Source: a virus. Taken from it: a stretch of DNA of 45,609 bases. This document shows, piece by piece, positions 4,350 to 22,913 of this stretch. The notes below the pieces were generated by a model, which worked only from the letters and a program-made list of their open reading frames with translations, did no database searches and had not been told where the DNA came from. Both the position numbers and the translations under genes were made by a program. Position 1 is the stretch's first letter. Each line of letters begins with the position of its first letter. The stretch lies in IMG/VR virus record IMGVR_UViG_3300027849_000002, positions 1 through 45,609 of that record; one strand, given 5' to 3'.

Positions 4350-5765
4350 ATGACTCCTGAAGAGTTAAAAGCCCAACTAGCATTGGCTGTTAAGCTAGGT
4401 AAAGAAGTTGAAGCAGAAAACGCAAAAATCAAAATTAAAGCCGAGAAGCTTGAAGCTGATAACGTGGCTATGATGACTAAGTTTGAAGCACTTAGTAAGC
4501 AGATCGAAGATGGTGGTGGTGACATCAAGCAACTTGAAGAGATGGCTGAAACCATCAAAGAGTTGCAAAGTGAAATCTCTGATGTTCGCTCTAAGCATCA
4601 AAAGCCATCTTTGGTGTTACCAGAAGATGCAAAGACAGCACTTAAACAAGTTGCTGGTGGTGCAATCGGTAGTTTCTTAGCACAAAAGAAACGTGATGGC
4701 GGTGTTAAAGCTGATGACTTAAATGATTTTATGTCAATTGCTGCAGCAGGTGTTGCTGATAAAGTTAAGGCTTTAAATATTGCTACTGATGCTGATGGTG
4801 GTTTAGCTATCGCTGAAATCTTAGCAACTGATGTTTTAGATTATGCCCGTAATTCTTACCCGATTTTGCAAGAAGTTGGCTTTAAGTCTGGTATGACTCG
4901 CAACTATCGCCAGTTAGTTAATCTTGGTGGTGTTGGTGTTCGTCGCGGTGCTGAAAATACTGATGGACAAACTAAAATTGATCCTGCTACTGGTAAGTAC
5001 GTTAGTACAGCCACACAGTCTTACGCAGAAGTTAAGTCCAATACATTCCAAGCATCTGCAGAGCCATTAATCTCAGATCATGCAATGTCTGCACCAGATA
5101 TTGATATCTATAACGACTTGATCGTTGACTTAGGTATTGAAGTTGGCGAATGGCTTGCTAATGACGTAACCCTTGGCTCTGGCGCACTTACTGGTGGTGA
5201 TGGTACTGCTCGCGGTATTTTAGGTTCGCGCTTAGATATCACTAACTTAACTGGTGAAAGTTGGAAACCAACAAAAGGTGCTGGCAGACGTAATGCTGAC
5301 GTATTCCCTGCTTACGCTACTGGCGTTGCTGGCGATATGGGTGCTAACGATAAAACTCGCGTTGATTGGTTGCTGAAGTTTATGCGCCAATTGCCTGTTC
5401 GTTACCGTATGGGCGCTAAACTTTACATGAATGAAAATACATTAAGTGTTTTCGAATTGGCGCGTGATGCAAATGAACGTCCAGTATTTCGTGTAACCTA
5501 TATGGATGGTGAGCCACGCTTGAATGGCAAGCCAGTTGTTTTAGATGATAACATGCCTGATATCGCGACTGATGCTGCCTTCATTATGTACGGTGATTTA
5601 AAACTTGCTTACGCTATCAATAATGGTGACGTAGAGAAGATGCAGATCAACCCTTACATTGTTCGTGGTGCTACTGTTGTTGAGTACGATAAAGAAATGT
5701 TTGAGATGATCCAACGCTCAGATGCTTTAATTATCGGTGTTGCGACAACTAACGCTGCAGCTTAA
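4350..5765 (+). CDS. Major capsid protein (HK97 fold) with N-terminal delta domain
   Basis: This 471-residue protein would form the icosahedral shell. Residues 1-90 are a charged coiled coil (repeated EAENAKIKIKAEKLEA-type sequence), the scaffolding delta domain that the upstream protease normally removes. From about residue 140 the HK97 core begins (ATDADGGLAIAEILATDVL), and the end reads YDKEMFEMIQRSDALIIG, typical of Phage_capsid. The ribosome site AAAGGT precedes the ATG. A strong hairpin terminator follows, which would raise the relative amount of capsid message. Confidence 0.94.
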   Translation: MTPEELKAQLALAVKLGKEVEAENAKIKIKAEKLEADNVAMMTKFEALSKQIEDGGGDIKQLEEMAETIKELQSEISDVRSKHQKPSLVLPEDAKTALKQVAGGAIGSFLAQKKRDGGVKADDLNDFMSIAAAGVADKVKALNIATDADGGLAIAEILATDVLDYARNSYPILQEVGFKSGMTRNYRQLVNLGGVGVRRGAENTDGQTKIDPATGKYVSTATQSYAEVKSNTFQASAEPLISDHAMSAPDIDIYNDLIVDLGIEVGEWLANDVTLGSGALTGGDGTARGILGSRLDITNLTGESWKPTKGAGRRNADVFPAYATGVAGDMGANDKTRVDWLLKFMRQLPVRYRMGAKLYMNENTLSVFELARDANERPVFRVTYMDGEPRLNGKPVVLDDNMPDIATDAAFIMYGDLKLAYAINNGDVEKMQINPYIVRGATVVEYDKEMFEMIQRSDALIIGVATTNAAA

Positions 5766-5782
5766 TCTAAGTAGATGCAAAT

Positions 5783-5816
5783 AAAAGGGTGGTGTCATTG
5801 CGACCCGCCCTTTTTT
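5783..5816 (+). terminator. Intrinsic terminator after the capsid gene
   Basis: The stem AAAAGGGTGG (5783-5792) pairs with CCGCCCTTTT (5805-5814) through one T-G wobble, with a 12-base loop, and the 3' arm runs into six T. The next late gene begins 14 bases later, so it is probably a partial terminator that sets the capsid:connector ratio. Confidence 0.75.
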
Positions 5817-5829
5817 ATTATGGTGACTT

Positions 5830-6351
5830 ATGTTTTATAGAGTAATAAACCGAAGTGAGACTGCTGTTGTCACTTTGGCACAGTCCAAGAATCAACTTAA
5901 TATTGTAGATGACGAGGGCTTGGACGATGACCATATACAGTTACTAATTGACACTGCTGTAGAGTTGTCAGAAAAATATACTCGCAGACTTTTTACTGTC
6001 GAAACGGTAGAGTTGCTCACTCAAAATAAGCAGTCTTTTTTCCTTCCATTGGGCGAAGTTGAAACTGTAACCTCTGCAAAGTTTGCCAGTGATGATTCTG
6101 ATGTAGGCTTTACTTTCAACGCCATATCGCAAATATTTACCTTTGATGATAATGTAGATACCACCAAAGAAATAAAAATAACATATACTGCAGGCTACAC
6201 AAAGCCAGCAAGAGCAGCGATCATGGGTTCGATGATGCTGATCTCATCAATGTGGGAAAATCGAGAAGATACGATAACTGGCATGACAGTTGCAGATATT
6301 CCATTAAACTCAACTGCTATACTGGACTCAATTAAGCTAGGGTGGTTTTAA
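5830..6351 (+). CDS. Head-tail connector (HK97 gp6-like)
   Basis: This 173-residue protein fits the gp6-like adaptor that forms a ring under the portal. It starts with the typical pattern KNQLNIVDDEGLDDDHIQLLIDTAVELSEKYTRR (described here by its span, residues 21-54) and has the later segment KITYTAGYTKPARAAIMGSMMLIS common in the family. The position directly after capsid and before the stopper supports it. It ends in TAATG, overlapping the next start by one base. Confidence 0.85.
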   Translation: MFYRVINRSETAVVTLAQSKNQLNIVDDEGLDDDHIQLLIDTAVELSEKYTRRLFTVETVELLTQNKQSFFLPLGEVETVTSAKFASDDSDVGFTFNAISQIFTFDDNVDTTKEIKITYTAGYTKPARAAIMGSMMLISSMWENREDTITGMTVADIPLNSTAILDSIKLGWF

Positions 6352-6665
6352 TGCAATCTGGCAGACTACGCGACCAAGTTGAAGTGCAAGTAAAGTCTAG
6401 CTTGAAAGATGAGTACGGTGCTAAAGTTGATACATATTCTAAGCTTTATGTAGCAAAAGGAAATGTGAGATACATGGCTGGCTCTGAACTAATAAAAGCA
6501 GGCGTAGCATCAAACCTAGTCGTTATTACTGTGCTTATGCGATACGATAGGCGTATGACTAACAAGTGCTTCATAATGACTCATGGTGAGCGTTTTGAGG
6601 TTGAAAGCATTAAGCCATCTGATGATAGACGAGAAATTATTGTCACAGCAACAAGAGAAACATAA
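6351..6665 (+). CDS. Head closure / head-tail adaptor (HK97 gp7 / SPP1 gp16-like)
   Basis: This protein (104 residues) looks like the small beta-barrel head-closure family: MQSGRLRDQVEVQVKSSLKDEYG at the start (residues 1-23), then a middle strand region and RFEVESIKPSDDRREIIV near the end. I choose ATG 6351 with AGGGTGG upstream, rather than the in-frame GTG nine bases earlier. It lies between the gp6-like connector and the tail terminator, the canonical place. Confidence 0.82.
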   Translation: MQSGRLRDQVEVQVKSSLKDEYGAKVDTYSKLYVAKGNVRYMAGSELIKAGVASNLVVITVLMRYDRRMTNKCFIMTHGERFEVESIKPSDDRREIIVTATRET

Positions 6666-7018
6666 TGAATAGACCAGCGTTTGTTAGACTGCTGCAATCA
6701 GTCATTGTTGATCAGCAAATTTGGATTGACGTAGTGCCAGAAGAAGAGGCTTATCCTGCACTGACTTATACGCACGTTACCGGTGATGGCACGCGATTAC
6801 TTAATGGTGACAAAGTTAACCTGTGGGATACATGGCGAGTTAGAATTATTGGTAAAAGTCGCGCTGAATGTGATGCTATCGTGGCACTACTTGAGCCTTT
6901 GGATAACAGCAGAAGTGATGATTTTAGGCGAGTGATGATCAAGTCATCTCAGGGCGTACCATCAAGCCCTAATGATGAGTATGTTAGCTCATTTGTGGAC
7001 TTTAAAACTTACGACTAG
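6665..7018 (+). CDS. Tail completion / tail terminator protein (DUF3168-like)
   Basis: This 117-residue protein contains IDVVPEEEAYPALTYTHVTG and LWDTWRVRIIGKSRAECDAI, patterns of the DUF3168 tail-completion family, which caps the head-proximal end of the tail tube. Length and location agree. It starts in TAATG with the preceding gene. Assignment rests on these patterns and order, not on alignment. Confidence 0.75.
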   Translation: MNRPAFVRLLQSVIVDQQIWIDVVPEEEAYPALTYTHVTGDGTRLLNGDKVNLWDTWRVRIIGKSRAECDAIVALLEPLDNSRSDDFRRVMIKSSQGVPSSPNDEYVSSFVDFKTYD

Positions 7019-7025
7019 GTGATTT

Positions 7026-7535
7026 ATGGCTAAGGGTATTGTTTATATTTCTGATGTAGATGATGTAATCGCTGATTTTGATAAGACCGTTGGCGACATC
7101 GAAGTTTTGGCTAAAGAGTCGATGAAGAAATCACTGACAAGAATTGAAAGCCAGATGAAGATAAATACTTCAACCATGCTCAACAAGGGCTATGCAACTG
7201 GTAGAATGTTTAATGCTATAGGTCATCATGTAGGCGAAAACTATGATGGCGTTATAACCGGCAGTGTTGGCGTTTATGATGATAATATTCGAGATCCAAA
7301 GCGTAGACTTACACCACCACCATTAGCGAGAATGATAGAAAATGGTACTAGACCTCATTCGACTTCTAGTAATTCAAGGTTAAAGCATAAATCTAGGCGT
7401 GGTGAGGATAAAGGACAAGAGGAAAGGATTCATGGTGGTACACCGCCAATACCATTTTTATCTAGCGCTTTCGATGTTGGATCTATCGCTATATTTGAAG
7501 ATTTAAAGGCAGCACTAAAAAATTCCATTGACTAG
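7026..7535 (+). CDS. HK97 gp10-like tail/connector protein
   Basis: This is a 169-residue protein of the HK97 gp10 type: an N-terminal helix (VLAKESMKKSLTRIESQMKIN), a glycine-rich middle, ARMIENGTRPHS (typical for the family) and a C-terminal PPIPFLSSAFD motif seen in gp10-like proteins. Family members act in tail assembly at the joining of head and tail; the exact role is not settled. An 85-base AT-rich gap with no gene follows. Confidence 0.8.
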   Translation: MAKGIVYISDVDDVIADFDKTVGDIEVLAKESMKKSLTRIESQMKINTSTMLNKGYATGRMFNAIGHHVGENYDGVITGSVGVYDDNIRDPKRRLTPPPLARMIENGTRPHSTSSNSRLKHKSRRGEDKGQEERIHGGTPPIPFLSSAFDVGSIAIFEDLKAALKNSID

Positions 7536-7620
7536 TAATATTGCTTATACTTGTCAATAGGCGTATGGTTGGGCATGATAGTCTTAACTACTTTTAATTA
7601 ACTTTATACAGGAAAAAATT

Positions 7621-8073
7621 ATGGCAGATGAAGCAACCCTTGCTGCTGGCACGATAGTTAAGTTTGACACTGAACTAGTAGCGCCAACATTCGCAAAATT
7701 CATAAAAGGTGTTATTTCAGTAGGTTCAGTCGGTGAAATGGCAGAATCAAAAGAGCGCACTGTGCTAGCTGACACCTCTAAGAAGTACGGTGCTGGCATG
7801 AAAGATGCACCAGATAAAACAATCAAAGGTCAGCACTATGCTTTAAATGCAGACCAAAAAGCGTTTTTAACCGCAGCTAAAAACAACGAAACCGTAATGG
7901 TCCAAGTTGAATATCCTGCGCCAGTTGGTGCGGATACAGGTACTATTGCCAAAATGGAATTCAAGTTGCTTGGCTTTGAGCTTGATGACGTTACCGGTGA
8001 AGATTGGATGATGTTTACAGTTAATGCTAAACAAAACTCAATTGAATGGACTGATGCTGTAGCGACAGCTTAG
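7621..8073 (+). CDS. Major tail (tube) protein
   Basis: This 150-residue protein is probably the tail tube subunit: it follows the gp10-like gene, precedes the frameshifted chaperone pair, and has the compact beta-rich sequence of tube proteins (TIKGQHYALNADQKAFLTAAKNNETVMV by residues 64-91; EFKLLGFELDDVTGEDWM). The ribosome site AGGAAA lies before ATG 7621. The family is a short lambda gpV-like tube without an obvious Ig-like tail. Confidence 0.8.
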   Translation: MADEATLAAGTIVKFDTELVAPTFAKFIKGVISVGSVGEMAESKERTVLADTSKKYGAGMKDAPDKTIKGQHYALNADQKAFLTAAKNNETVMVQVEYPAPVGADTGTIAKMEFKLLGFELDDVTGEDWMMFTVNAKQNSIEWTDAVATA

Positions 8074-8112
8074 TAAAAACAAACCAGCGATCAATAACGG
8101 AGTAAAGTAGCA

Positions 8113-8457
8113 ATGCAAACAGCAAGTGTAAATTTAGTTAACGAAGATGGCAAAGAAGTTGCCAACTATCAGATAAGTCGTTTGAATGTTCGTGATGCCA
8201 TGCGTAGACAGCGAATGTTTAGCATGATAACTGAAGAAGATGAACTGGTGCGAGGTCAATTATTTGGTGCTGCATCAATTGCGTGTTCTTTGTGTGATAG
8301 CAAAGGTAATCCGGTGTACCCCGAAAAAGAATATCCAGACTTAAAGGCTATTGACGAGCTAATGAATATGGACTTTGAAGTGTACAATGCCATTGCTCAC
8401 GCAGCAATTGAAGTGAACCCTGTCACCTCGCTAAAGGCAAAAAAAAAGAAATCTTAG
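8113..8457 (+). CDS. Tail assembly chaperone, short product (lambda gpG-like)
   Basis: This 114-residue protein precedes the tape measure and has the predicted layout of the lambda G position. Its body includes MRRQRMFSMITEEDELVRGQL and PEKEYPDLKAIDELMNMDFEVYNAI. It ends LKAKKKKS at TAG 8455-8457. Near the end is a run of nine A and a G (8439-8448), giving the classic slip site A AAA AAG at 8442-8448 in the correct frame, which leads into the extension below. Confidence 0.88.
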   Translation: MQTASVNLVNEDGKEVANYQISRLNVRDAMRRQRMFSMITEEDELVRGQLFGAASIACSLCDSKGNPVYPEKEYPDLKAIDELMNMDFEVYNAIAHAAIEVNPVTSLKAKKKKS

Positions 8458-16439: not shown

Positions 16440-19031
16440 ATGGCATCACCAACAATTAAATTTATAAAATCACCTTCAGTTAGTGTAACGAATGGCAGTA
16501 AAATAGTCACATTAACAGGTGATGTTGACACTTATCATGTTTACGATGGTACAGCTATATTCATTAATAATCACCCACCTGTCGAGGGCTTTTCTGGCAC
16601 AACAGTTGATGGCTCTGGCAATAGCACTATAACGCTAAAAGATGCTTGGACACTTCCTAGTGTGACAGGTGGCACGTTAGTTGCATTCAATAGTAACGAG
16701 GGATTACCTGAAGCAATTCGCAGAGCCAGAAGTATCGGTAACTTAACGCTAACATTAATGACAAATTTTGAAACGCTACTCAACAGCACCTCATCATCAG
16801 TGAGTATTGATATTGATGGCGTACCAACAAGCTTTGTTCCATATAAATATTTAGAAAACGAGTTTGAGTCAAAGATAACTGAGCTTAACAATCTAACTGG
16901 AAGTATCAACGCCACGACAAAAGCTGAATTTGATCGCGCCAGATTTAACGAGTTAAACAACTTCTCTGTGTCAGGTGTTGTAAATGTTGACTTTGATAGC
17001 GGCTATGAATTTCAGCAAATAAACGGTTGGCAGAACAAATTTACAATCAAGGCAGGCAAAGCCATGATTGATGGCATTTGGCATAAGTACAGCAGCACCG
17101 AAATTATGCTGCCTGATGCACCTGACGGCTTAGATAAAAAAGATTTGTCAAGTCGATTTAATGACTTGGCAGAAGCAACAGTGGCAGGAGGCGATGAGCT
17201 ATCTCAATCGTATTTAGATCAACGCTGTATCGTTTATGCTGTACAAAAAGACACTGAAGCGCCTTTTGGGTCTTCTGGAACATACATTCAAGATGCTGAT
17301 AACAATATTTACAGTAATGATGGTGTGTTACGCCAACGAACATTTGAATTTTTTTCTGAGCGATTGCTTGAAAGTGTATCTATCGAAGGTGCAGATTCAT
17401 ATCAGTCAACCATAAATGCTATGACCTCCCTCGGGTGGTCACAAGATAGCGATGTATTGGGGCAATTCAAAAAAGGTGATGACATTGCTATTGTGTTTAC
17501 TATTGTTCAACGTAGAAACCAAGGCGCTTATCACCCTAGTTACAATCCTGAAGGTGTGGCGTATGCTACTGACGGTGTAGATCTGAGCAATAGAGCATTT
17601 TGGACTGACTCTGCTGCTGCGATAACCAGTAAACAAGAGGCGTTTTCTAATGCGTGTGTTGCTGCAAATGCAAATGGTTCGTTAATATCTTCAACATCTT
17701 CTGGTGGTAGATTCCCTAGACCAGACGGCAAATTCTACGATGCAATATACGCCTCAGACGTTAAAGATTTACGTATGTCAGCTAAGAAATTACCGCTTAA
17801 AGAAATACGCGAGAAATACAAGCGTATGGCGATTGCAGGGGAAGTTCGTGGGTTTGAAGGTGTGCCACTTATAACAAAAGCACGACTAAGCGACTATCTG
17901 TCAGGAGATGATGCCGTTAACTACCTATCAGAGGGGAAATTTACACTAATACATAACGGAGAAGATCATTTAAGATTATCATCTCCGAGTCAAGTTTCAG
18001 CATTAGACGGCTTGAGCTGGATTTTCGTAAAAGGTGGTGTAATTTACCGTAATTACGCGTGGAATAATCAATATCACACAAGAATTTTTAAGTGGTCTGG
18101 TGGTTCATGGGGAGTGTCTACCATTGCAGAACTACAAGGGGAGTTTCTTGCTATCCCTTATGCTGCACCTAGTAGCGGAACAGGATTGCTTAAATCAGGC
18201 GCGGTTGATGGTGCGTGGGGTTACAAGTATAAAGGCCAACTTTCTGGTGCTATTATAAGCAATCACCAACAAGCAAACCCAATATGGACAGACATTATTG
18301 GCGACCCTGCTAATATTGCAGCAACTTTTCCCGATGGTGTTGAAGGTCAATGGATACCTGCACTACCTAGTGGTGTTACTACAGCATTTAAACTGAATAG
18401 AAAGTCATTAAATAACGTAGTGAACAGAGCTTGGTCTGATTTAGGTGACGGAACAGACTGGCAGAGCGCAGACAATATTATAGACGTGGTAAAGAATACA
18501 TCGGCAACAGGAATACCATCAACCGCGATAATGTTAATACACTACGAAACACAAGCACACTTCACACAAGATGATGTGAATAGCAAGGTGGTGGATTTGG
18601 GTGGTGTTTGGGCAAGTAATCACTATCAGCCAGATTGGGGCAGTGCGCTACAGTCCAGCTTGATTGGGGAGGTTGGAATTTCCACAACAGACCCTAGAGT
18701 GGGCTATTTTGGAGAAGTTAACGGATACCTATTGCGACCAACTAGCAATGACTTTCACCCTTCTAGTTCTTATGAGCCAACACATAAAAACGTGGTATTA
18801 GGTGGTACGTCAACCGCAGTAAAAACACTAGACTACCTTTCTCACGACAATAACGTAGCTAAATTGTGTTATGCGTATAAAGAAATGAAATTTGATGTTA
18901 CTTGGGGCGATAACAATCAGTTTGAAATTTATAATCAATCTGCTATTATTACGGATGACAACGGGAATAGTATTAAAGTTGGTACAAGCAGCTTTGATAC
19001 TCAGTTTTTCATAGATGATGGTGGTACGTAA
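16440..19031 (+). CDS. Tail fibre / receptor-binding protein
   Basis: This 863-residue protein directly follows the hub. The N-terminus (MASPTIKFIKSPSVSVTNG) is a likely attachment domain: a beta-rich head with TVDGSGNSTITLKDAWTLP, then ARSIGNLTLTLMTNFETLL, common in fibres that bind the tail tip. The middle includes FTIVQRRNQGAYHPSYNPEG, found in many marine phage fibres. The end reads IKVGTSSFDTQFFIDDGGT. A related end recurs 690 bases downstream, past the endonuclease gene, so the 3' end may have been rebuilt. AGAGGAATAA-type ribosome site precedes it (GAGGAATAAAATG). Confidence 0.85.
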   Translation: MASPTIKFIKSPSVSVTNGSKIVTLTGDVDTYHVYDGTAIFINNHPPVEGFSGTTVDGSGNSTITLKDAWTLPSVTGGTLVAFNSNEGLPEAIRRARSIGNLTLTLMTNFETLLNSTSSSVSIDIDGVPTSFVPYKYLENEFESKITELNNLTGSINATTKAEFDRARFNELNNFSVSGVVNVDFDSGYEFQQINGWQNKFTIKAGKAMIDGIWHKYSSTEIMLPDAPDGLDKKDLSSRFNDLAEATVAGGDELSQSYLDQRCIVYAVQKDTEAPFGSSGTYIQDADNNIYSNDGVLRQRTFEFFSERLLESVSIEGADSYQSTINAMTSLGWSQDSDVLGQFKKGDDIAIVFTIVQRRNQGAYHPSYNPEGVAYATDGVDLSNRAFWTDSAAAITSKQEAFSNACVAANANGSLISSTSSGGRFPRPDGKFYDAIYASDVKDLRMSAKKLPLKEIREKYKRMAIAGEVRGFEGVPLITKARLSDYLSGDDAVNYLSEGKFTLIHNGEDHLRLSSPSQVSALDGLSWIFVKGGVIYRNYAWNNQYHTRIFKWSGGSWGVSTIAELQGEFLAIPYAAPSSGTGLLKSGAVDGAWGYKYKGQLSGAIISNHQQANPIWTDIIGDPANIAATFPDGVEGQWIPALPSGVTTAFKLNRKSLNNVVNRAWSDLGDGTDWQSADNIIDVVKNTSATGIPSTAIMLIHYETQAHFTQDDVNSKVVDLGGVWASNHYQPDWGSALQSSLIGEVGISTTDPRVGYFGEVNGYLLRPTSNDFHPSSSYEPTHKNVVLGGTSTAVKTLDYLSHDNNVAKLCYAYKEMKFDVTWGDNNQFEIYNQSAIITDDNGNSIKVGTSSFDTQFFIDDGGT

Positions 19032-19032
19032 T

Positions 19033-19677
19033 ATGGCATTAGAAACTCATAACAGGTGGACTGTAACAGGTTTCGTGATGAAGCCTCGCTCAGACGGGAG
19101 AAAAATGAAGTACGCTAAATGTTTGTGCGAGTGTGGCACTGAAAAGGATGTAGCCTACAAGGATGTGAAAGCTGGGCGGTCTAAGTCCTGTGGGTGTTTA
19201 CAAAAGGAAAAGGCAAAATCTAACAAGCCTAATGCCACTCATGGTATGTATGGAACTAAGGTTTACCGAATTTGGAGAGGAATGAAAACCAGATGCAATA
19301 ACCCTAATGTCGTTGAGTACCCTGATTATGGTGGAAGAGGTATTAAGGTCTGCTCTGAGTGGGAAACTTTTGAAGGGTTCTACTCTAGTATGGGTGATGT
19401 TCCGAATGGAGATTTTACGTTAGAGCGTAATGACAACGATAAGGGCTACAGTATCCACAACTGTCGCTGGGTGGATAGAAAAACCCAAGCTAATAATAGG
19501 CGCAACAATACCTGTTATGAAATCGGGGGAACTACCAAAACTGTTGCGGAGTGGTGCGAACAGCATAACCAACCTGTGAACAGGGTTTACTCAAGACTTA
19601 AGTACGGGTGGGATATAATGGACGCACTATTACTACCTAAAATCACTACAGGGAATGCCCATGAAAGTACTGCATAA
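19033..19677 (+). CDS. HNH/AP2-type homing endonuclease
   Basis: This 214-residue protein carries two zinc-binding-looking CxC motifs at the start (CLCECGTEKD, SCGCLQKEK), then the phage HNH/AP2 signature: YRIWRGMKTRCNNPNVVEYP, YGGRGIKVCSEWETFEGFY, TLERNDNDKGYSIHNCRW, and KTQANNRRNN. A C-terminal segment (TKTVAEWCEQHNQPVNRVYSRL) looks like a DNA-binding helix-turn-helix of the NUMOD type. Start is ATG 19033 behind GGTGG in the fibre's last codons. It lies in an imperfect duplication of the fibre end, the usual mark of mobile-gene insertion. Confidence 0.85.
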   Translation: MALETHNRWTVTGFVMKPRSDGRKMKYAKCLCECGTEKDVAYKDVKAGRSKSCGCLQKEKAKSNKPNATHGMYGTKVYRIWRGMKTRCNNPNVVEYPDYGGRGIKVCSEWETFEGFYSSMGDVPNGDFTLERNDNDKGYSIHNCRWVDRKTQANNRRNNTCYEIGGTTKTVAEWCEQHNQPVNRVYSRLKYGWDIMDALLLPKITTGNAHESTA

Positions 19678-20880: not shown

Positions 20881-21330
20881 CTATCGTACTATTTCAATAT
20901 GCCCACCATCATAAAGCTTAGTAAAATGACCGCCCCATCGAATTTTTAACCCTAATTCCATTGCTGCCTCATAGTAGCAAGATGCAATAAGTGCAAATGC
21001 ATCCTTATTATCCCAATCAGCTTTGCCATCAATGTACGGAACAAAATCAGTAGCATCACCAGACTGATGTATTGACTTATTGAAATACCCATCTGCATAA
21101 GTAACAATTAAACTAGCGTACATTTCTCTGCCAGTATCATCGCGCCCTTTTCGCCAAAGCTCGTGTTGCTCTTTATCTGTTCGCAATACAGATACAATTG
21201 ACCAATCAGGCGTTGGCTCCTTTCTTTTATTTGCTATCGACATGGCTTTGATATTTAATTTTTGCATGTCAGAAGTGCCTGTCAGTATGCGTTCCATACT
21301 TCTTTGTCCGTAGTGATTATTATTAGACAT
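20881..21330 (-). CDS. Endolysin, M15-type L,D-peptidase
   Basis: This is a 149-residue single-domain peptidase cutting peptide cross-links in peptidoglycan. Zinc-ligand motifs are visible: SIHQSGDATDFVPY (His and Asp, about residues 93-99) and the C-terminal GGHIEIVR (His about 145), as in phage T5 endolysin and VanY-like M15C/M15_4 enzymes. The ribosome site AGGAGG is the strongest in the window. It is the last gene of the leftward replication strand, facing the holin, so its expression may begin before late genes and depend on the holin for timing. No signal peptide is seen. Confidence 0.88.
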   Translation of the reverse strand: MSNNNHYGQRSMERILTGTSDMQKLNIKAMSIANKRKEPTPDWSIVSVLRTDKEQHELWRKGRDDTGREMYASLIVTYADGYFNKSIHQSGDATDFVPYIDGKADWDNKDAFALIASCYYEAAMELGLKIRWGGHFTKLYDGGHIEIVR

Positions 21331-21406
21331 AGTGCCTCCTAATTTTAAAAGCTTAATTAATCTGGTCTAATGTGTGAAAGCGTGCATTTTGCTCGTGTAC
21401 ACTGTG

Positions 21407-21890
21407 TTAGCGAGATTTACCCAAAGGCAGTGTCAATATCCGATAAATCCTTCTGGTGCAAATTATCTTTCAATAAATACCCCTCTAACATCCATATTTT
21501 ATTTCGCGCATTTTCAAAAGCGATCTTCTCACCAATTTCAGCGTTAAAATTTTCAGGACTTGCACATGCGCTTTCACCGCTTACAGTAAATCCGTTTTCT
21601 AAAGTTAGGCAGCAAACAGTTAAACAACTACCATCAAAAACATGGAATGCCTTACCTTTTATTTTACTATCAATTAAATCAGGTGTTAATCGCGGTGCGT
21701 TTAAGTTTTTATCTTGTATTTCTTTTTCAATAGATTGTTCAGTCATTTTATTTTTACCTTTTAGTTTTGGTGTTAGCAAATCTCGCTAACAACGCATTCA
21801 AACGGGATAAAAACAGTTTGCTGCGCGTTGCTAGTTTTGTTAAATAATTAATCTCTGTGTGTAATTCGTTTTTACCCTTTAATGCTAAGG
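21407..21890. mobile_element. Candidate integron-type gene cassette carrying the gp49-like gene
   Basis: The unit runs from the T after G in GTTAGCG (21406-21412) to the G of GTTAGTT (21890), 484 bases, the bounds a tyrosine integron integrase would use. TGTTAGCGAGATTT (21405-21418) at the left is the exact reverse complement of AAATCTCGCTAACA (21778-21791), the R''-box side of the attC-like site. In the closed circle these would form a perfectly paired outer stem. The gp49-like gene reads leftward, opposite to the usual cassette orientation. No integrase is present in the window. Confidence 0.5.
21417..21746 (-). CDS. N4 gp49 / Sf6 gene 66-like phage protein
   Basis: This 109-residue protein matches the pattern of the N4 gp49/Sf6 gp66 family: NLNAPRLTPDLIDSKIKGKA, CLTVCCLTLENGFTVSGESA, SPENFNAEIGEKIAFENARN, KIWMLEGYLL. 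Function in the family is not known. I choose ATG 21746 behind AAAGGT; an in-frame TTG at 21779 would lie within the flanking inverted repeat. The gene fits entirely inside the candidate cassette, and its stop codon is inside the left inverted-repeat arm. Confidence 0.85.
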   Translation of the reverse strand: MTEQSIEKEIQDKNLNAPRLTPDLIDSKIKGKAFHVFDGSCLTVCCLTLENGFTVSGESACASPENFNAEIGEKIAFENARNKIWMLEGYLLKDNLHQKDLSDIDTAFG

Positions 21891-21896
21891 TTAGTT
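21784..21896 (+). repeat. attC-like recombination site
   Basis: R''-like CGCTAAC (21784-21790) and R'-like GTTAGTT (21890-21896) bound an imperfect palindrome. Pairs are CTAAC/GTTAG, GCATT (21794-21798)/AATGC (21881-21885), AAA (21800-21802)/TTT (21878-21880), GGG (21804-21806)/CCC (21875-21877). Unpaired C at 21799 and 21803 are on the left arm, matching the extrahelical bases that set attC polarity. CTAACAACGCATTCAAACGG resembles known attC left arms. The R' box departs from GTTRRRY at one base. Confidence 0.55.
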
Positions 21897-22139
21897 TGCT
21901 TTAATATTAGGTAGTGTCTCTATCCATTCAAAAACGTCTTGAGAATTATCTAACTCCATAGTAGTTTCAAAATTTACGTTTTTATCAGCTTCCCATACTC
22001 TATCTTCTAGAGCTTCGCTAAATGTAAATACATAACCGTTAGCGTAACCCTCTGGTATAGGACAGCGCCTCTCATACTTAGCACTAATTGGAGTTATCAC
22101 TTTATCTCCTAGCTTTTTAACCATTTTTGCAATAGCCAT
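21891..22139 (-). CDS. Hypothetical protein
   Basis: This is an 82-residue protein, starting MAIAKMVKKLGDKVITPISAKYERRC; charged, no membrane segment, no family recognised. ATG is preceded by AGAGGTATTACG. The stop codon lies within the R'-like end of the attC-like site, so a cassette inserting there could have altered the gene's C-terminus (ending TLPNIKAN). Confidence 0.6.
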   Translation of the reverse strand: MAIAKMVKKLGDKVITPISAKYERRCPIPEGYANGYVFTFSEALEDRVWEADKNVNFETTMELDNSQDVFEWIETLPNIKAN

Positions 22140-22151
22140 CGTAATACCTCT

Positions 22152-22250
22152 TTAAATTAAATTTACTATAGCTACGATGACGACAGTTACCATACCACCA
22201 GCAGCGTACCCAACCCAAAAACTGTAACTTTCTACTTTCATTAATCCCAT
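22152..22250 (-). CDS. Small single-span membrane peptide
   Basis: This is a 32-residue frame from ATG 22250 to TAA 22152. It reads MGLMKVESYSFWVGYAAGGM and then a hydrophobic VTVVIVAIVNLI end, one predicted membrane span. GCGAGAGAGAAT precedes the start. It fills the gap between SSB and the preceding gene in the leftward operon. No family recognised. Confidence 0.55.
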   Translation of the reverse strand: MGLMKVESYSFWVGYAAGGMVTVVIVAIVNLI

Positions 22251-22274: not shown

Positions 22275-22913
22275 TTAGAACGGAATATCATCAATATCAA
22301 TCGTTGGCTCTTGTGGGTTTACCTTAGGAGCATTTTGTTGAAAACCGCCTGACTGTTGAGACGACTGTTGCTGGTATCCACCAGATTGTTGTTGATAACC
22401 ACCAGATTGTTGAGAATTTGATTGCTGCTGTGCAGGTTGTTGATAACCACCGTTTTGTTGTGCCTGTTTGTTATAAGCTTGTTGAGGTGCTGCAGCTTGC
22501 TGCTGAAAACAGCCAGACTGTTGGGGTGCTTGTTGATTAAATCCACCTGCGCCAGCACCGCTACCGCCACGAGAGTCTAGCATTTGCATTGTGCCATTAA
22601 AGCCTTGAACTACAATTTCAGTCGTATATTGATCTTGGCCTTGTTGGTTCTGCCATTTACGTGTTTGAAAAGCGCCTTCAATGTAAACTTTAGAGCCTTT
22701 CTTTAAATATTCGCCAGCGATTTCTGCTAACTTACCGAAAATAACTACACGATGCCATTCAGTTTTTTCTTTCTGCTCGCCTGTTTGTTTGTCTTTCCAA
22801 GATTCAGACGTTGCGATTGATAGATTTGCAACAGCGTTGCCGCTTGGCAAAAATTTAACCTCTGGATCATTGCCAAGGTTGCCTAAAATCATTGCTTTAT
22901 TTACACCAGCCAT
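22275..22913 (-). CDS. ssb: Single-stranded DNA-binding protein
   Basis: This is a 212-residue bacterial-type SSB. The OB fold spans about residues 1-110 ([59 protein letters not shown]). A Gly/Gln-rich low-complexity linker follows (about 115-200, many QQSGGYQQ units), and the tip is DIDDIPF, the acidic tail that docks replication and repair partners. It would cover ssDNA during replication and recombination with the RecE-like nuclease of the same operon. Confidence 0.97.

Follow-up and report, generated by a model that had tools for sequence, protein, structure and literature searches.

An inverted single-gene unit with integron cassette architecture in an uncultivated phage contig

Genomic context of the 484-bp unit

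The IMG/VR virus record IMGVR_UViG_3300027849_000002 comprises 45,609 bases, and the window analysed here covered the whole of it (positions 1 to 45,609). Terminase, portal, prohead protease and capsid genes were found on one side of the record, and single-strand DNA-binding protein (SSB), helicase, primase-type and nuclease-type genes on the other. In the middle of the contig, the SSB gene (22275-22913, minus strand; PF00436) and an M15-family endolysin-like gene (20881-21330, minus strand; PF13539, phrog_465) lie in a co-directional operon. Between them lies a unit of 484 bp (21407-21890, plus strand), bordered by the M15 gene on one side and on the other by ORF82 (21891-22139, minus strand), which is upstream of the unit in the operon. 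The unit contains one small gene, encoding a 109-aa gp49-family protein (21417-21746, minus strand), and, upstream of the start codon of that gene, an attC site, which with its 3-nt flanks spans 113 nt (21784-21896, plus strand). The initial annotation had described a single gene-sized unit of 484 bases ending in an attC-like feature; the length of the unit and the coordinates and bases of the 21784-21896 feature were reproduced exactly.

The cargo gene had a full-length match to Phage_gp49_66 (PF13876, E 5.7e-30; 104 bits against a curated cutoff of 27) and a match to phrog_322 (E 3e-53). Its stop codon lies 10 nt inside the cassette boundary, not at the boundary. This family (N4 gp49 / Sf6 gene 66) is present in 432 phage records, and gp49 is common in phages that do not have the attC arrangement; the best GenBank relative, in Vibrio phage PS25B.1 (L002), had no match to an attC model.

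Host-chromosome contamination or a chimeric contig might have placed an integron fragment in a phage record, and this record is an uncultivated IMG/VR contig of which the ends and completeness are not established. This explanation was judged the least probable of those considered, given that the unit is mid-contig between the SSB and M15 endolysin genes, with the terminase, portal, protease and capsid genes flanking it on the same contig, and that the arrangement recurs in independent contigs.

Two other features of the window were recorded. The interval between ORF82 and the SSB gene (22152-22241, minus strand) may encode a 29-aa membrane peptide, MKVESYSFWVGYAAGGMVTVVIVAIVNLI, which was read by eye. 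A 220-aa protein encoded at 19015-19677 (plus strand) had relatives in two other loci, L105 and L166 (tblastn only), and is of a type that seems to move between phages.

Architecture and detection of the attC site

The attC site has the order R''-L''-spacer-L'-R', all on the plus strand. The R'' box core CTAAC (21786-21790) is followed by the L'' arm GCATT-C-AAA-C-GGG-A-TAAAAAC (21794-21814), the L' arm GTTTTTA-CCC-TTT-AATGC (21868-21885) and the R' box GTTAGTT (21890-21896), whose TTA, read on the other strand, is the stop codon (TAA) of ORF82. A phage-type spacer, TAAG, precedes the G|TT crossover point. R'' CTAAC and R' GTTAG flank 18 inner pairs, and three bases of the left arm (C, C and A) are unpaired. 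The R-box ends and bulged left arm that had been proposed from inspection were confirmed, but the proposed 11 inner pairs and two unpaired C residues were too few.

A strict covariance model with no variation in spacer length (R1) was constructed from 27 attC arms of V. anguillarum (MK672802), Shewanella M16-3 (MZ568829) and TJE1 (HQ225832). It contained 15 pairs that were 90.6% paired and showed strong covariation, compared with 30-46% in slid versions, and it recovered untrained attC sites in H101/PH101 and in class 1 integrons. The R1 scan of the window did not detect the site at 21784-21896, most likely because the 3' spacer before G|TT is 4 nt long, not 3 nt; the 3-nt spacer was present in all but one of the 25 bacterial training sites. 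A broader Infernal model (R2) was then derived from R1's own 46 matches at other attC sites, with the window site left out. R2 detected the site with a score of 36.2 bits (E 2.3e-6), the next place in the window scoring 12.3 bits. The covariance-model search recommended in the initial annotation therefore succeeded with the broader model but not with the strict one, a caution that phage sites can escape an attC search designed around bacterial ones.

A spacer-flexible profile, which allowed spacers of 3-5 nt and was trained on 52 other sites without the window, gave 49.3 bits and 11/11 pairs at the same position, or 38.5 bits when trained on bacterial sites alone. Elsewhere in the window the best score was 6.8 bits, and the maximum over 400 dinucleotide-shuffled windows was 25.9. 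Leave-one-out scores of the training sites were 31.6 to 56.8, except for one outlier of 3.9, which had been assigned to the wrong strand. Since the profile was designed after the site had been seen, R2 is the fairer test. Both searches found one attC site in the window and thus no proven array here; as a CALIN (a cluster of attC sites without an integrase) is defined by at least two attC sites (PMC9024848), the window does not contain one under the two-site rule. An Rfam search returned nothing relevant.

Cassette boundaries and folding

The crossover points of the unit were placed at the G|TT sequences at 21406|21407 and 21890|21891. The 5' end of an integron cassette is the complement of that cassette's R'' box, so that the ends pair when the cassette is circular. 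The left boundary and R'' of the window cassette matched at 7/7 bases and the match extended to 14 bp, forming an exact inverted repeat between 21405-21418 (plus strand; the cassette 5' end TTAGCGAGATTT together with the target TG) and 21778-21791 (plus strand; the extended R'' side), as had been noted. When the 1.8-kb region was shuffled 2000 times, a perfect 14-bp inverted repeat appeared 19 times, which makes it uncommon but possible by chance; taken alone it is modest evidence, and its weight comes from the fact that it begins exactly at R''. All 27 comparisons of adjacent sites in the V. anguillarum and Shewanella arrays showed closure at 7/7 bases, extending 7-12, and in the phage arrays 18 of 24 adjacent sites closed at 7/7, compared with 12% of random site pairs.

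Folding of the bottom strand across the circular junction gave the canonical attC structure as the minimum free energy (MFE) fold (-20.9 kcal/mol, z -4.6), and none of 300 shuffles was as low. For the isolated integrated site, in contrast, the canonical fold was at -5.9 kcal/mol, as determined by direct energy evaluation, whereas the MFE of -11.7 kcal/mol belonged to a competing hairpin of ordinary stability (z -0.86). The folding check supported the circular form and not the integrated one.

The preference of the isolated site for another hairpin, together with the failure of R1 and the overlap of some attC-like matches elsewhere with coding sequence, would be expected if the feature were an intergenic hairpin, such as a terminator or processing site, that merely resembles attC and is not integron-derived. 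We regard this as very improbable, because attC models trained without the window site fitted both its sequence and its pairing, because the boundaries close over 14 bp and because a very low energy was reached only in the circular form. The feature at 21784-21896 (plus strand) is an attC site. Together, the gp49 family match, the R2 match and the circle closure support the reading of 21407-21890 as a genuine single-gene integron-type cassette in a phage, as first suggested, with mobility a prediction from the sequence.

Orientation relative to attC and junction signatures

Genes in integron cassettes usually, although not absolutely, run in the same direction as their attC site. The window has attC on the plus strand and the gp49 gene on the minus strand, so that the gene does read away from attC, a feature that had been listed as an oddity. 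The orientation of attC was surveyed by a profile scan of 2.66 Mb of fetched loci, with orientation calls that rest on ORF predictions; the IMG/VR contigs included had been fetched through SSB or gp49 relatives or through one 16-mer, a sampling that gives no estimate of prevalence. Relative to both flanking genes, 30 attC sites on viral contigs were opposite, none was the same and seven were mixed, so that all 30 unambiguous sites shared the orientation seen in the window. The known bacterial-type arrays (V. anguillarum, Shewanella M16-3, TJE1 and class 1) gave 31 same and none opposite. In PH101, described by Qi et al., three attC sites were also opposed, the GenBank genes there all being on the minus strand and attC on the plus strand.

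The same result was obtained with Infernal only, as 23/23 R2 matches in SSB loci ran opposite to the SSB gene. One contig (G019, IMGVR_UViG_3300025296_000045; locus L182) carried thirteen attC sites between 22267 and 35292, in two clusters that surround SSB, ERF-like and DNA methyltransferase genes. These clusters are on opposite strands and each opposes its own genes, which indicates that the bias follows the genes and not one genome strand. Terminase genes were present in G019 and in a second record, G016, and G019 also had a P22-like portal gene. In phage contigs such as these, genes that read away from attC are therefore the norm, and other marine-type phages carry whole multi-cassette arrays with this orientation, the reverse of that in bacterial arrays.

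Two further signatures were associated with the inverted format. The TAA in the R' core (TAA|C in the gene direction) terminates an ORF of at least 40 aa at 25/35 viral sites, compared with 9% of all TAAC words, and ORF82 ends exactly at this TAA in the window. The base before G|TT was G in 30/36 phage-contig sites, as it is in the window, and C in 35/37 bacterial-type sites. Read in the operon direction, the order is an upstream gene ending in TAA|C, attC as a 5' leader, a ribosome-binding site, the gp49 gene and the next boundary. That several unrelated phage contigs share the inverted format, a distinctive spacer and the overlap with a stop codon suggests that phages use the integron reaction in a way adapted to them, and that they keep their own stock of swappable genes in a format unlike that of bacterial integrons.

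Long attC sites in L183 (7240-7368), L182 (5725-5851) and L173 (5884-6013) had an R''-L'' arm that also codes for an N-terminal motif like VSNPVEAVVS, in proteins that are otherwise different. The same frame in the window reads TVFIPFECVVSEIC and then a stop, without a start codon.

Other attC-bearing phage contigs

At least three other phages carried gp49 directly behind an inverted attC site. In L088 the gene is 35 nt behind the site, and the other boundary, GCATAAC, matches that R''; in L125 and L087 the inverted attC ends approximately 30 nt before the gp49 start. attC-like R2 matches were also present in two more gp49 contigs, L101 (5763-5874, E 0.007) and L103 (4584-4706, E 1e-4), outside an array context.

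Several related phages had attC sites downstream of the SSB gene. R2 matches were obtained in five SSB loci (L167, L169, L173, L182 and L183), all of which rank within the top 18 relatives of the window SSB. L173 had approximately seven attC sites just downstream of SSB (5532-8247), several of which measure about 130 nt and overlap the starts of genes. The sites in L173 and L183 were at first read as look-alikes in coding sequence, a reading that was abandoned when R2 and closure supported them as attC.

Integrase, source and proposed mode of entry

A search of this record (G000) for the integron integrase (TIGR02249), which a complete integron encodes, gave no match, and no IntI exceeded the cutoff in ten other array-bearing or related records; G016 had one partial 26-bit match to a tyrosine recombinase. 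These results make a host integrase the likely agent.

Exact and gapped patterns of the window attC had no occurrence in genome_contigs or viral_contigs, and BLAST of the site against plasmids found none. BLAST against phages returned two weak Enterococcus matches, which were judged to be chance. A 16-mer, CTAACAACGCATTCAA, occurred at 23 loci, mostly by chance, the exception being L024, which carries attC sites. The patterns tried gave no copy of the cassette, or of this type of attC, in plasmids, phage records or genome_contigs. The plasmid and genome_contigs pattern searches likewise yielded no bacterial donor of the proposed genera (Vibrio, Shewanella or Pseudoalteromonas).

A rival explanation is that a bacterial cassette was acquired once with its gene reversed by chance, leaving a single fossil attC without a continuing role. 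The presence of one attC in the window, the lack of IntI and the poor folding of the integrated site are in keeping with it, as are the pieces of host integrons in V. anguillarum phages noted by Qi et al. (PMC9892861). We nevertheless consider it unlikely: the format was inverted at every unambiguous viral site, gp49 is cassette cargo elsewhere, and the base before G|TT in the window is of the phage and not the bacterial type. The unit is probably an integron-type gene cassette in an inverted format, which presumably entered by IntI-type recombination.

The substrate of IntI is the bottom strand of attC in its folded form, and this sets the orientation of a cassette toward the Pc promoter (PMC11023631); IntI1 recombines phage attC sites (Qi et al., PMC9892861). 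Entry of the window cassette would involve the action of IntI on this folded strand, with the integrase supplied by the chromosomal integron of the host. With the crossover at a GTTA core that immediately follows a TAA stop codon, the neighbouring gene would stay intact and the incoming gene would read along the operon. Such phages may in this way swap small early genes with one another by attC x attC exchange in integron-bearing hosts. Were the cassette placed in a bacterial integron, it would read antisense to Pc.

A wider proposal, to which we give about even chances, is that there is a lineage-spanning stock of small early genes held as inverted cassette arrays, in many cases immediately downstream of SSB, in which attC serves as the 5' leader and the R' core provides the stop codon of the neighbour. 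Such arrays would be reshuffled by host integron integrases. Through the inversion, a phage cassette would be silent inside a bacterial integron and a bacterial cassette would be antisense inside a phage operon, which would keep the two pools functionally apart.

Comparison with known attC-bearing elements

Phage attC sites were previously known from few genomes and were treated as borrowed bacterial cassettes. CALINs have been published in the virulent phages TJE1, P12002L and H101/PH101, as described by Qi et al. (2023, PMC9892861). Like the window, those phages have attC without an integron integrase and single small genes, and their methyltransferase cargo is also found in G019. PH101 resembles the window in that attC opposes the annotated genes; it differs in having mostly C before G|TT, compared with G at most sites here. 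The passages of that paper on phage CALINs mention neither the inverted format nor the stop codon in R'. A search of an open-access library, with subscription papers and preprints outside its scope, found no description of an inverted, stop-codon-fused phage attC format.

The sedentary chromosomal integron of Vibrio, represented by the V. anguillarum array in phage Va_90-11-286_p16, shares with the window a stem of 5 bp-bulge-3 bp-bulge-3 bp, the R boxes and circle closure. The V. anguillarum array differs in that its genes run in the same direction as attC, an integrase is present and the 3-nt spacer ends in C. Class 1 integron cassettes, as carried by a P1 phage (MH445380), share the R and L boxes, a left-arm bulge and one gene per cassette; they differ in their short attC of about 60 nt, their co-oriented gene and the presence of an integrase and Pc promoter.

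A phage-adapted format would make it possible to test whether lytic phages exchange SSB-adjacent small genes, methyltransferases and gp49 through host integrases, and in what way large chromosomal integrons and phages interact.

ORF82 and relatives of the flanking genes

Relatives of the flanking genes were searched for an empty site. Among 15 records found through TerL relatives there was no SSB or gp49 match, and no true empty site was identified through the M15 gene, which had one distant relative, or through ORF82, the relative of which (L257) was in an unrelated context. The latter sequence (L257, 4001-4249) had 87.5% DNA identity that was confined to the ORF, on an otherwise unrelated contig without attC or the cassette unit. 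The cassette reading had been expected to fail if no attC model matched and if relatives shared the site within a conserved gene; R2 matched, and the L257 relative occurs without the unit. As ORF82 recurs alone in this unrelated contig, it may itself be a former cassette gene. Another relative of ORF82 (43%) was found in Vibrio phage Va_PF430-3_p42, a phage that is reported by Qi et al. (PMC9892861) to carry an integron integrase.
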